A DNA stretch of 60,788 nucleotides from Flavipsychrobacter sp. (lineage in GTDB: Bacteria > Bacteroidota > Bacteroidia > Chitinophagales > Chitinophagaceae): the NCBI GenBank assembly GCA_016786615.1, contig JAEUVX010000013.1, forward strand, positions 1 through 60,788. The letters are read 5' to 3'. The translations under genes were made by a program, and so were the position numbers. Below are positions 22,987 to 25,640 of this stretch, in pieces. A model generated the notes under the pieces. The model saw only the letters and a list, made by a program, of their open reading frames with translations, did no database searches and was not told the DNA's origin. Position 1 is the stretch's first letter, and the number at the start of each line of letters is the position of its first letter.

Positions 22987-23018
22987 TTGCATAAAGGATG
23001 GGCTGTATTGCATATTTG
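22987..23018 (+). promoter_or_regulatory. Promoter of the PID-CTERM/exosortase pair
   Basis: A TTG at 22987-22989 and CATATTTG at 23011-23018 (7 of 8 matches to TAnnTTTG) are 21 bases apart, the spacing expected between -33 and -7 elements of Bacteroidota. Transcription would start near 23024, giving a leader of about 40 bases before the ATG at 23066. Confidence 0.5.
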
Positions 23019-23065
23019 CAGCACTATAATACAAACCAATCGTTTACCACTTAAAAAACTAAAAA

Positions 23066-23263
23066 ATGAAAAAACACATTATGCTGACAGCAGTTTTCGT
23101 TACGATGACTGTAGCAGCAATCGCACAGACTGCAAGTAATTGTGTGCCTGTAGATGGCGGCCTGAGTTTATTGGTTGCAGCAGGTATTGCAGGTTACAGC
23201 GCAAAGAAAGTTGCTGAAAAGAAAAAACAATCTAAGGATAATACTCAAATCAAAGAGAAATAG
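23066..23263 (+). CDS. 65-residue PID-CTERM protein, predicted exosortase substrate
   Basis: The protein has a signal peptide (1-20, ending AAIA-QT), only about seven residues (QTASNCV), then PVDGG (28-32), a short hydrophobic helix (LSLLVAAGIAGYSA, 33-46) and a Lys-rich tail. The C-terminal tripartite layout (motif, helix, basic tail) is that of exosortase sorting signals; PVDGG resembles the P-I-D-G-G signature of the Bacteroidota PID-CTERM group as I recall it. There is nearly no passenger, so the mature product after both cuts would be a very short peptide containing Cys26. It lies immediately upstream of the exosortase gene, whose ATG is 6 bases past its stop. Confidence 0.82.
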   Translation: MKKHIMLTAVFVTMTVAAIAQTASNCVPVDGGLSLLVAAGIAGYSAKKVAEKKKQSKDNTQIKEK

Positions 23264-23269
23264 TTGAGT

Positions 23270-23797
23270 ATGGTTGCACAAACAACCAGGTTATACCGGG
23301 AGCTACCTCAAAGTGTCAGGCACTTCCTTGTTAAGACAGCTCTGTTACTTTCAGGTTGGCTCGCGGTATATCACCTGCTTTTAAAACCGTTTCGTTTCCC
23401 CGATAAGTATCTTACAAATATCGTAATCGATGGTACAGTGTACTTACTTCAATTACTTGGTTTTGATACCGTAAGCAAAGGGCAATGGGTATATATCAAT
23501 AATGAGTTTTCTGTAGGCATTGCTGACCAGTGCAACGGGCTTGAATTGATGGTGTTGTTCATCGGCTTTTTATTAGCGATTGGGGGTACTGTCAAATCGA
23601 AGCTGTTGTATATGCTTAATGGTGTTATACTGATTTTTGTCCTCAACGTTGTGCGTTGCACAGCCCTTGCATATATGACTCATATTAATGCGCCGCTAAT
23701 TGATTTTGCGCACCATTACGCGTTCAAATTGGTTATATACGCGGTGATATTTATGATGTGGTATCTGTATAGTCAAAAAGAAAAAAAGTATAGCTAA
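23270..23797 (+). CDS. Exosortase/archaeosortase family protein (XrtX-like)
   Basis: A small polytopic membrane transpeptidase that recognises a C-terminal sorting signal and transfers the protein to an unknown acceptor. With the start at 23270 the triad is Cys88 in ADQCNGLEL, Arg129 in NVVRCTAL and His148 or His149 in FAHHYAF, in the expected order and spacing. About six helices are visible in 175 residues, the compact length of the Bacteroidota branch; it lacks the long EpsI-like fusion of PEP-CTERM exosortases. The name XrtX is a family guess. A TTG at 23264 directly follows the upstream stop; the ATG two codons later is preferred. It overlaps the convergent permease gene by 4 bases. Confidence 0.88.
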   Translation: MVAQTTRLYRELPQSVRHFLVKTALLLSGWLAVYHLLLKPFRFPDKYLTNIVIDGTVYLLQLLGFDTVSKGQWVYINNEFSVGIADQCNGLELMVLFIGFLLAIGGTVKSKLLYMLNGVILIFVLNVVRCTALAYMTHINAPLIDFAHHYAFKLVIYAVIFMMWYLYSQKEKKYS

Positions 23798-24999
23798 CCG
23801 TTGCTGCGAAGAGCAGTGAAAATAGACCTTGTTACAAAAATCAATAGTGTTCCTGCGCTTAATATCAGTGCAGTCCATACCGGCAATCCAGGGGAATCGG
23901 GTAGTGATATATTCATTGATATCAGGCGCGTTGAGGCTATGTCCTGTATGGTGGTAGCAACAATTGCCGACATGCCTAATGCAATGATGATCAGCGGTAC
24001 AAAGCGCCTGAGCATAAACATGGCAAGATAGCGGGGGCTGTATCCCATTAACAGCAGAAGCGATAGAGATTGCTTTGCTTTAGCAATGGTCAATTCTATA
24101 AAGAGGATGAATACCAACGTACCTATACCCATCAGTAGTATAGCCAGCAGTCCTGTGCCGGATGCTACCGTTTCTACAACACTGCGCATACGGTTCCATC
24201 TCAGTTGTTCGCTATTGGTGGTATAGTCGTTTTTACTCAGAAACTCCGCAAAACGTTTGTCGCTCGGGTCATTTACCTTTAGTATTAGGCGCGATGGTGC
24301 AATGGGTATTGTAGGGGCAAATGTTTTATTGCCGTATTCTATAAATGATTGCGGTACAAGTACAGAGCTGATACGGTCACTGAAACCGATTACACGTCCT
24401 GTATAGTGTTCTGTATAACCTCCCTTCCCGATAGTAAGGTCGAAGGCTAAAGCTTGTATGGTTGCCTGTGATAATTGCGGCATGTTCTGGCTTAAAGCAA
24501 AGCCGTAATTATACATGTTCAGAAAGTCGGAAGATAGTATAATGGGTACTTGAGTGTTGCCGGGCTCCCAACTCCATCCGAAAGGGCGTTTGTCCATAAA
24601 CCTGTCTGGTACGGCTTCCAGAAACATATCTGTAGCAAACCCGTTGGCTATGCTCAGTGATGCATAAACAGGAAACCTGTTCGATATCAGCATACCTACA
24701 TCCTCCACCTGCGGTGCGGCAGCAACAGCCTCAATTTGCCTTGGTGTAAACAACGAGGCATTTTTTTTGCCCATCATTTCATTGGTTACATTTTTACCTA
24801 TGGTGAGGAATGTACTGCCGAGGCTATCGTTATTGACGCTGCCGTTTAATATCAGGCTGAAGTTCCACCATATCATAACCGCTACCAGCAGTAGTGTGGT
24901 GCCGGCAAATAGCGCAAGCAGTGATATCCACAACCGGTTGTTGCTGCGGTGGCGTAGCAGTAGCTTGCTTACCAGTTTCGATTGTTTCAGTGGTTTCAC
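23794..24999 (-). CDS. ABC transporter permease, FtsX-like
   Basis: A 401-residue inner-membrane protein with one helix near residues 22-45, a long extracytoplasmic domain of about 220 residues (PQVEDVGMLISNRFPVYASL...VNDPSDKRFAEFL), then three C-terminal helices (near 285-310, 330-355 and 370-395). This is the FtsX/MacB/LolC topology used in lipoprotein extraction and mechanotransmission rather than import. It starts at GTG, which overlaps the ATPase stop as GTGA. No adaptor or outer-membrane channel gene is nearby, so the substrate cannot be assigned. Confidence 0.85.
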   Translation of the reverse strand: MKPLKQSKLVSKLLLRHRSNNRLWISLLALFAGTTLLLVAVMIWWNFSLILNGSVNNDSLGSTFLTIGKNVTNEMMGKKNASLFTPRQIEAVAAAPQVEDVGMLISNRFPVYASLSIANGFATDMFLEAVPDRFMDKRPFGWSWEPGNTQVPIILSSDFLNMYNYGFALSQNMPQLSQATIQALAFDLTIGKGGYTEHYTGRVIGFSDRISSVLVPQSFIEYGNKTFAPTIPIAPSRLILKVNDPSDKRFAEFLSKNDYTTNSEQLRWNRMRSVVETVASGTGLLAILLMGIGTLVFILFIELTIAKAKQSLSLLLLMGYSPRYLAMFMLRRFVPLIIIALGMSAIVATTIQDIASTRLISMNISLPDSPGLPVWTALILSAGTLLIFVTRSIFTALRSNG

Positions 25000-25640
25000 A
25001 GCAGCAGTTTTCGGGTGTAGGTGAAGTAATTATTGTCATCAAGGTCGGCAAGTAATATGCCTGCTTTATTCATTTCCGCTACTTCGTTGATCAGTGCTAT
25101 GGCTCGTTGCCTGTTGGCATGGTCCAGATGGCTGAAGGGTTCATCCATAATCAGCCATTCAAAAGGTTGTAACAGTGCGCGTACTATTGCAACACGTTGT
25201 TGCTCGCCATAAGATAATTTGCTTGCAGTGCTATCCATTTTGTGTTTGATGCCAAGCCTGTCCATCCATTTTTCAGCGTCGTATTCACTCACCGTATTCG
25301 TAAGCCTGCGTTTTACCTCCAGGTTTTCCCATGTTGTGAGTTCGGGGAAAAGCCGCATGTCTTGAAATATTACACTTACAGCAGAAGCCCTGAGTTGCGA
25401 TAATTGTTCCGTGTTTATTTCGTGCATTTTAAATGCACTCCAGTGTATCTTCCCTTCATAGTCGTTGCGAAGCCCGTAAAGGAAATGTATAAGTGTGGTT
25501 TTTCCGGTACCGGAAGGCGCTTGTATAAATATCCTTTCACCACTGTTGAAAGTCAGTTTCTGATTCCATACCCGCGAGTTGTACTCGCTTATCCTATCCT
25601 TCATGGGTATGGGTACTATATGTTCTATGCTCAGGCGCAT
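24996..25640 (-). CDS. ABC transporter ATP-binding protein paired with FtsX-like permease
   Basis: This 214-residue nucleotide-binding subunit has Walker A PSGTGKTT (42-49), Q-loop Gln93 in FQDMRLFPELT, the ABC signature LSYGEQQR (142-149) and Walker B WLIMDEP (162-168), followed by the D-loop SHLD. The H-loop position, normally VTHD, reads LADLD, so the switch histidine seems replaced, and the C-terminus is short (NYFTYTRKLLL). It energises the permease encoded next to it (overlap GTGA). The type matches LolD/MacB-like ATPases. Transcription is convergent with the exosortase unit and divergent from the acyl-CoA synthetase gene. Confidence 0.9.
   Translation of the reverse strand: MRLSIEHIVPIPMKDRISEYNSRVWNQKLTFNSGERIFIQAPSGTGKTTLIHFLYGLRNDYEGKIHWSAFKMHEINTEQLSQLRASAVSVIFQDMRLFPELTTWENLEVKRRLTNTVSEYDAEKWMDRLGIKHKMDSTASKLSYGEQQRVAIVRALLQPFEWLIMDEPFSHLDHANRQRAIALINEVAEMNKAGILLADLDDNNYFTYTRKLLL

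Follow-up and report, generated by a model that had tools for sequence, protein, structure and literature searches.

The window, by which we mean the whole stretch of 60,788 nt that was analysed, carries a gene for a 65-aa protein followed after 6 nt by a gene for a 175-aa protein (Table 1), an arrangement that confirms the initial annotation. The small protein is built from a putative signal peptide (MKKHIMLTAVFVTMTVAAIA), the residues QTASNCV, the motif PVDGG, a short hydrophobic helix (LSLLVAAGIAGYSA) and a tail beginning with KK, and its gene stops at 23263. By eye, Gln21 stands directly after the predicted signal peptide, at the Bacteroidetes Q-rule position, and Cys26 is retained in the loci of both close relatives described below (L134 and L135). 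The second frame runs from the ATG at 23270 to 23797; the ORF caller preferred an alternative TTG start at 23264, which would give 177 aa. The promoter box previously taken to support a single transcript fared unevenly: its elements and their spacing are identical by eye in L134 and L135, with a different spacer sequence, but its statistical support in the window alone is weak, the pattern TTG-N21-CATATTTG matching once against 0.25 expected and at least once in 23 of 100 shuffles. On the 3' side lie two convergent minus-strand genes (window 23794-25640, with an overlap of 4 nt at the end of the exosortase gene), one a 401-aa permease-like frame with no NCBIfam match and the other an ABC ATPase of the FtsE/LolD type (119.7 bits, under the cut-off of 264.85), and both neighbours, by eye, are also present in L134 and L135.

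Table 1. Positions of the gene pair and its parts in the window.
Feature	Position	Strand	Basis
Promoter-like box, TTG-N21-CATATTTG	22987..23018	+	Pattern search of the window
PID-CTERM-like mini-protein gene, 65 aa	23066..23263	+	NF046080, conservation, dN/dS
Mini-protein, predicted signal peptide, residues 1-20	23066..23125	+	Sequence, by eye
Mini-protein, QTASNCV, seven residues from signal peptide to motif	23126..23146	+	Sequence
Mini-protein, PVDGG sorting motif, residues 28-32	23147..23161	+	Sequence
Mini-protein, short hydrophobic helix, residues 33-46	23162..23203	+	By eye; alignment
Mini-protein, charged Lys-rich tail	23204..23260	+	Sequence
XrtX-like exosortase gene, 175 aa	23270..23797	+	NF046081, TIGR04178, PF09721; AlphaFold2
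Exosortase Cys88 codon, predicted nucleophile	23531..23533	+	Alignment
Exosortase Arg129 codon	23654..23656	+	Alignment
Exosortase His148 codon	23711..23713	+	Alignment

The 175-aa protein scored above the cut-offs of both TIGR04178 (57.3 bits, cut-off 23) and PF09721 (45.1 bits, cut-off 25.7), which bears out its earlier identification as an exosortase and, by sequence profile, places it in the exosortase/archaeosortase superfamily, with cleavage and conjugation of a CTERM substrate as its predicted activity. The proposed catalytic residues Cys88, Arg129 and His148 are invariant in 26/26 aligned sequences (the window protein among them), and the lack of conservation that would have refuted the initial annotation was not seen. 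The AlphaFold2 model is mostly helical, with a mean pLDDT of 91.5; a search for solved-structure relatives of XrtX returned none by profile at E 0.1 and none by Foldseek at E 0.001, and hence there is no template for the geometry of the active site. XrtX (NF046081) was the top of 16 matching families, at 145.2 bits under a curated cut-off of 170, followed by XrtF (TIGR04128) with 74.1 bits (cut-off 90). The assignment of the small protein to the PID-CTERM type held for its nearest family and its layout, with motif, hydrophobic helix and basic end at the C-terminus by sequence and alignment, but its score against NF046080 was 24.3 bits (E 2e-5), under the cut-off of 26, and the match stopped at profile position 16 of 25. 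A PID-CTERM protein in the same genome, which the XrtX family calls for, is present in the form of five others above the PID_CTERM cut-off. Because both curated cut-offs were missed, we file the two proteins as XrtX-like and PID-CTERM-like rather than as members.

The pair is conserved in its nearest named relatives, the Chitinophagaceae bacteria LGM1 and IBVUCB1 (exosortase identity 77 and 72%), both of which carry a mini-gene at the equivalent place, with CVPVDGG and a gap of 7 nt to the exosortase; separation of the small frame from the exosortase, which would have spoken against the pair, is absent. For the mini-gene, dN/dS was 0.08-0.10 between the window and LGM1 or IBVUCB1 (dN 0.12-0.13, dS 1.2-1.6) and 0.07-0.10 across all three pairs. 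By this sequence comparison, both genes of the pair are under purifying selection, and the low dN/dS together with the retention of the pair in two close relatives shows that the mini-gene is not a chance frame. Among the 25 named loci, a PID-type mini-frame near the exosortase was found by a motif rule in 15, and a frame of 118-185 aa lay directly 3' of the exosortase in 20; the window, LGM1 and IBVUCB1 are without the latter gene. The gene order in Algibacter and Hyunsoonleella is large cargo, mini-gene, XrtX.

The host genome (G000; 2.96 Mb in 15 contigs) does not support the pair as a self-contained two-gene system, a description that proved too narrow. A search with the XrtX model, on which the count rests, identified at least three exosortase genes, namely that of the window, a second at C11:137563 that lies 22 nt behind a mini-gene of its own, and an XrtY-like gene next to PorZ. 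There are six PID-CTERM mini-genes, hence five besides the window's, with five of the six above the cut-off; two further matches of 13 and 11 bits were kept out. Two of the six have an XrtX-like gene directly 3', after 6 nt in one case and 22 nt in the other, and four follow T9SS-CTD proteins after 41, 32, 32 and 180 nt, the cargo C-termini scoring 57.1 (last 110 aa), 44.2, 49.0 and 35.9 bits against TIGR04183 (cut-off 23). The window mini-gene itself has no T9SS cargo alongside. That each XrtX-like gene of G000 has its own mini-gene directly upstream would suit a decoy that keeps the exosortase occupied, or a sensor of how heavily it is loaded; however, no regulator gene was recognised in the operon, and mini-genes elsewhere in G000 are built alike although no exosortase adjoins them, leaving this role only a slight chance. 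As a separate observation, the XrtY-like gene (131 bits, cut-off 160; G000:C7:180442-180945, L015:4425-4892) adjoins PorZ (L015:2034-4334), the protein through which anionic LPS reaches the PorU sortase. We rejected this as a general arrangement, PorZ being found in 2/82 loci, many of them short; the two loci with PorZ near an exosortase are that of G000 and L142, where a weak match lies about 4.7 kb off.

The tiny size that had made the substrate appear unusual is nearly always the rule for PID-CTERM proteins among the matches listed, as the open frame is no longer than 200 codons for 138/139 of those outside the host's order, and five more such proteins occur in G000. Within the same 139 mini-proteins, likewise among the matches listed, PIDGG, PVDGG or PLDGG occurred in 128 (PIDGG alone in 101), a net positive charge after the helix in 134, and Gln at the Q-rule position, as scored by script, in 111; for the mini-peptides that carry a Q site the median length is 17 residues, and many are low-complexity sequences. 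The apparent PID-CTERM signal on a large protein of G302 (965 aa called, 995-codon frame) was discarded, since this protein is an MSEP-CTERM protein of the XrtN type (743 bits). The 965-aa MSEP-CTERM protein at L239:4115-7012 exceeds the PID_CTERM cut-off (28.9 bits vs 26), from which it follows that the short PID_CTERM model can cross-match XrtN-type signals. Matches in G126 (952 aa) and at G040:C1:3143489 also looked false by eye; both were retained in the counts of the linkage tests below, and G126 was removed from the length-limited counts.

Our genome surveys established that PID-CTERM proteins co-occur with XrtX-type exosortases. Within the order, 35/148 genomes had a PID-CTERM match (E 0.01) and 56/148 an XrtX-model match (E 1e-10), with both in 33 of the 35 PID-CTERM genomes; one of the two genomes lacking the XrtX-model match is a likely false PID match. 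In the phylum sample, PID-CTERM (E 0.001) was found in 65/392 genomes and the XrtX model (E 1e-10) matched in 120/392 overall vs 65/65 of the PID-CTERM genomes (Fisher 4e-41), a figure that is not strictly one of XrtX because at this threshold the model also picks up XrtY- and XrtF-type exosortases. Conversely, PID-CTERM was present in 44/46 genomes whose XrtX exceeds its cut-off.

A Cys rule for all mini-proteins was rejected, Cys being commoner in the exosortase-linked ones only: it was present in 10/17 of these from the named loci and the window, and, in the survey sets, in 3/17 exosortase-linked vs 2/90 cargo-linked mini-proteins (Fisher 0.03); in L215, which supplies one of these two cargo-linked mini-proteins, the Cys falls inside the signal peptide. 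In Flavobacteriaceae, exosortase-linked mini-proteins have Cys-rich stretches such as CGKCGRTSHFGKC (L140:5681-6004, L154:5667-5996, L142:5598-6014), which are reminiscent of small metal- or disulfide-binding knots. The enrichment of Cys, the roughly 10-residue product with a conserved Cys that both cuts would leave in the window protein, and the FtsE/LolD-type ABC ATPase gene (sub-cut-off) two genes off on the opposite strand, with neighbours alike in L134 and L135, could together be read as a small Cys-containing peptide that is freed and acts as a cell-to-cell signal. Yet the transporter is convergent, outside the operon and without any tie to the peptide. Inspection by eye revealed no receptor gene adjoining the pair, and the Q-site mini-peptides have the median length and frequent low complexity given above, so that a signalling function is very unlikely.

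The linkage of mini-genes to T9SS type A cargo is established by the counts of their upstream neighbours. Outside the order, a CTD protein stood directly upstream, on the same strand and within 300 nt, of 60/82 mini-genes vs 13/786 other genes (Fisher 1e-60), as judged with a CTD profile made from order sequences alone; among short control genes (at most 140 aa) there, the figure was 1/89. The 82 mini-genes come from 84 regions chosen among the matches listed (at most two per genome), of which 80 were retrieved with 87 matches, less four without ATG and one without an upstream gene. The linkage was seen in 39/51 genomes, 14/22 genera and 8/11 families; because one family, f40, supplies 54 of the 82 mini-genes (46 linked, with 14/28 linked elsewhere), the P value overstates independence. 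Within the order, 31/57 mini-genes vs 13/517 other genes were linked (Fisher 2e-25), a test that is circular in part, given that the CTD profile includes these same cargo C-termini (31 in all, after L087, L103, L104 and L111 had been taken out by hand). From 62 listed order matches, 61 were examined, one contig-end match being omitted, and the set of 57 omits the window, one match without ATG and two contig-end matches. Of the upstream C-termini, TIGR04183 matched 62/68 outside the order (E up to 0.001; proteins of at least 200 aa, same strand, within 400 nt) and 25/35 in the order (E up to 0.01). A sorting tail was present in all nine cargo proteins scanned with Pfam; it was the sole match in five, and the other four also had FG-GAP, RCC1, Ig-like or laminin-G type domains.

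Cargo and mini-genes might be neighbours merely by way of a common surface or biofilm regulon, the peptide then coating the surface or exopolysaccharide with no contact with cargo. Consistent with this explanation, 27/58 mini-genes in the order and 15/83 outside have no CTD gene on either side, and some XrtX loci lie among nucleotide-sugar genes, surroundings that can be likened to the exopolysaccharide regions in which exosortases are classically situated. However, order and strand are mostly fixed, with the mini-gene downstream at median gaps of 39 and 78 nt, and five loci carry two cargo-mini units on one stretch, which exceeds what shared regulation needs; we consider a regulon alone an unlikely explanation. 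Counted on either side within 500 nt, a CTD neighbour was found for 68/83 mini-genes outside the order, and neither a CTD gene nor an exosortase adjoined 22/58 mini-genes in the order and 12/83 outside. Some mini-proteins have a context other than cargo: in genus g43, nine cargo-free mini-genes lie 3' of a conserved gene of 127-134 aa (L075, L079, L080, L082, L089, L094, L098, L108 and L109).

A second explanation of the linkage would have the mini-protein stay in the inner membrane as a small bitopic protein that helps or chaperones the export of its neighbour, its CTERM-like end being a mere membrane anchor. A signal peptide, short helix and basic tail would also fit a membrane microprotein, and type B cargo is known to have a partner encoded downstream, the SprF shuttle (PMC12618676). 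Nevertheless, the conserved motif (PIDGG in 101/139 among the matches listed) and the presence of an XrtX-type exosortase in 65/65 PID-CTERM genomes point to processing, and we regard a pure helper as quite unlikely.

PorV is the outer-membrane shuttle of the T9SS, and two mini-genes lie 3' of its gene: in G454 at 252 nt (NF033710, 293 bits, cut-off 250) and in G498 at 421 nt from a homologue with 61% identity. PorU (NF033707) and C25 peptidase gave no match in 12/65 PID-CTERM genomes (G223, G249, G259, G262, G307, G338, G385, G407, G460, G480, G481 and G507); a C25 peptidase match was present in six control genomes, and SprA was present in 18/18 genomes tested, including all 12 without PorU. 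Genomes with SprA and without PorU must process or retain T9SS cargo in some other way. Cargo-mini pairs occur in several of them (e.g. G407, G223 and G481), which indicates that the cargo-mini partnership is independent of PorU. For the same reason, ligation of cargo by PorU to the free N-terminus of the mini-peptide was rejected as a general mechanism (12/65 genomes without PorU); it is also opposed by the pyroglutamate N-terminus expected for most mini-peptides under the Q-rule, the cleavage of signal peptides before Gln described in PMC5837995 and PMC10653852.

In family f40, 5/14 xrtX loci were contiguous (overlap or at most 3 nt) with wbpE-, wbpD- and wbpB-like genes and two further loci had wbp-like genes within 3 kb, whereas none were found near xrtX in the 8 XrtX loci of other families; the survey covered the 22/25 loci in which a called XrtX gene was visible. 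The wbp profiles had been built from L244 and L251-L254, which comprise three of the contiguous loci and the two within-3-kb loci, so that matches there arise by construction and L260 and L261 are the independent ones; L259-L264 span just 3.3-5.7 kb, with L263 ending 233 nt past xrtX, and distant wbp genes would escape there. Compared with solved structures by phmmer, the proteins of L251 and L254 matched WbpE (3nyu, 3e-71), yet 7b0d better, an acetyltransferase (3mqg, 9e-73) and a dehydrogenase (3q2i, 7e-49). In the contiguous loci (L251:1937-8250 of G326, L244, L254, L260 and L261), the wbpB-, wbpD- and wbpE-like genes adjoin or overlap xrtX and a small frame follows, after which L244 and L251 carry a glycerate-kinase-like gene; the wbpD-like frame of L244 is short (109 aa). 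In G000, a wbpD-like gene (59% identity) and a UDP-GlcNAc 6-dehydrogenase-like gene stand next to each other, on a contig other than those of its XrtX genes.

Taken together, of the roles that the initial annotation had offered, the genomic evidence speaks most for that of an anchor or accessory linked with T9SS cargo, with peptide signal and decoy less favoured. We tentatively read the pair as an XrtX-like exosortase with a dedicated mini-substrate, whose anchored mini-peptides aid in holding or maturing T9SS cargo, and give this reading a nearly even chance. In this scheme, the mini-protein would cross the inner membrane by means of its signal peptide and be cut before Gln21, as the Q-rule suggests, while its short C-terminal helix would hold it in the membrane. 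Cys88 of the exosortase would then cut near PVD/GG, and the new C-terminus of the roughly 10-residue peptide QTASNCVPVD would pass to an acceptor in the envelope, much as archaeosortase A attaches substrate C-termini to lipid (PMC7157517). The acceptor may be a Wbp-type amino-uronic-acid glycolipid, and the anchored mini-peptides could serve as accessory or docking pieces for T9SS cargo at the cell surface, a physical partnership that we infer from the gene linkage. A bolder version, possible but doubtful, is that PID-CTERM mini-proteins in general are dedicated anchor or docking subunits, and that the peptide joined to a Wbp-type sugar glycolipid captures or matures its partner cargo at the outer membrane, also in lineages without PorU; if true, this would constitute an exosortase arm of type IX secretion. 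The mini-genes make up a defined set of candidates for the substrates of Bacteroidota exosortases. Paired as they are with T9SS cargo, they connect two surface-sorting systems that have mostly been studied separately, making it testable to what XrtX products are attached and how T9SS cargo is retained where PorU is missing.

In the open-licence literature searched, PID-CTERM and exosortase X were not found named, titles with 'XrtX' concerned oncology and numerical methods rather than this exosortase, and the accessible portions of articles on exosortases and type IX secretion held no description of the small protein size throughout this family or of its T9SS linkage. Among known systems, the pair most resembles XrtX/PID-CTERM, which are its best-scoring families and likewise place a mini-protein beside an exosortase in Bacteroidota, although the window proteins fall under both curated cut-offs (145.2 of 170 and 24.3 of 26 bits). 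With PEP-CTERM/EpsH and archaeosortase A it shares a tripartite C-terminal signal and a Cys-dependent membrane enzyme. The substrates of PEP-CTERM and ArtA systems are usually full-size proteins, whereas that of the window would leave almost nothing after both cuts. XrtF of Flavobacterium johnsoniae (Fjoh_1449) is a further Bacteroidota exosortase tied to surface colonisation along with T9SS genes: according to PMC10936215, a screen for surface colonisation yielded nine validated genes, xrtF, porZ, porV, porU and sprA among them, and the substrates of XrtF are left for future work. XrtF differs in belonging to a separate exosortase family, TIGR04128, to which the window protein scores 74 bits (cut-off 90). 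T9SS type B cargo offers a parallel in that a large cargo gene has a dedicated accessory gene directly downstream, which decides cargo secretion (PMC12618676); here, however, the cargo carries type A sorting domains, and its partner is an exosortase-type mini-protein, mostly of 60-130 aa, in place of an outer-membrane barrel. Finally, the PorU/A-LPS anchoring of Porphyromonas gingivalis also conjugates surface proteins at their C-termini with a Wbp-pathway sugar: according to PMC7468200, the sugar that receives the cargo is made by the Wbp/Vim pathway, and the authors of that work speculated on an exosortase link through VimA-like proteins. In contrast to that system, the conjugating enzyme here would be XrtX at the inner membrane, and 12/65 PID-CTERM genomes are without PorU.
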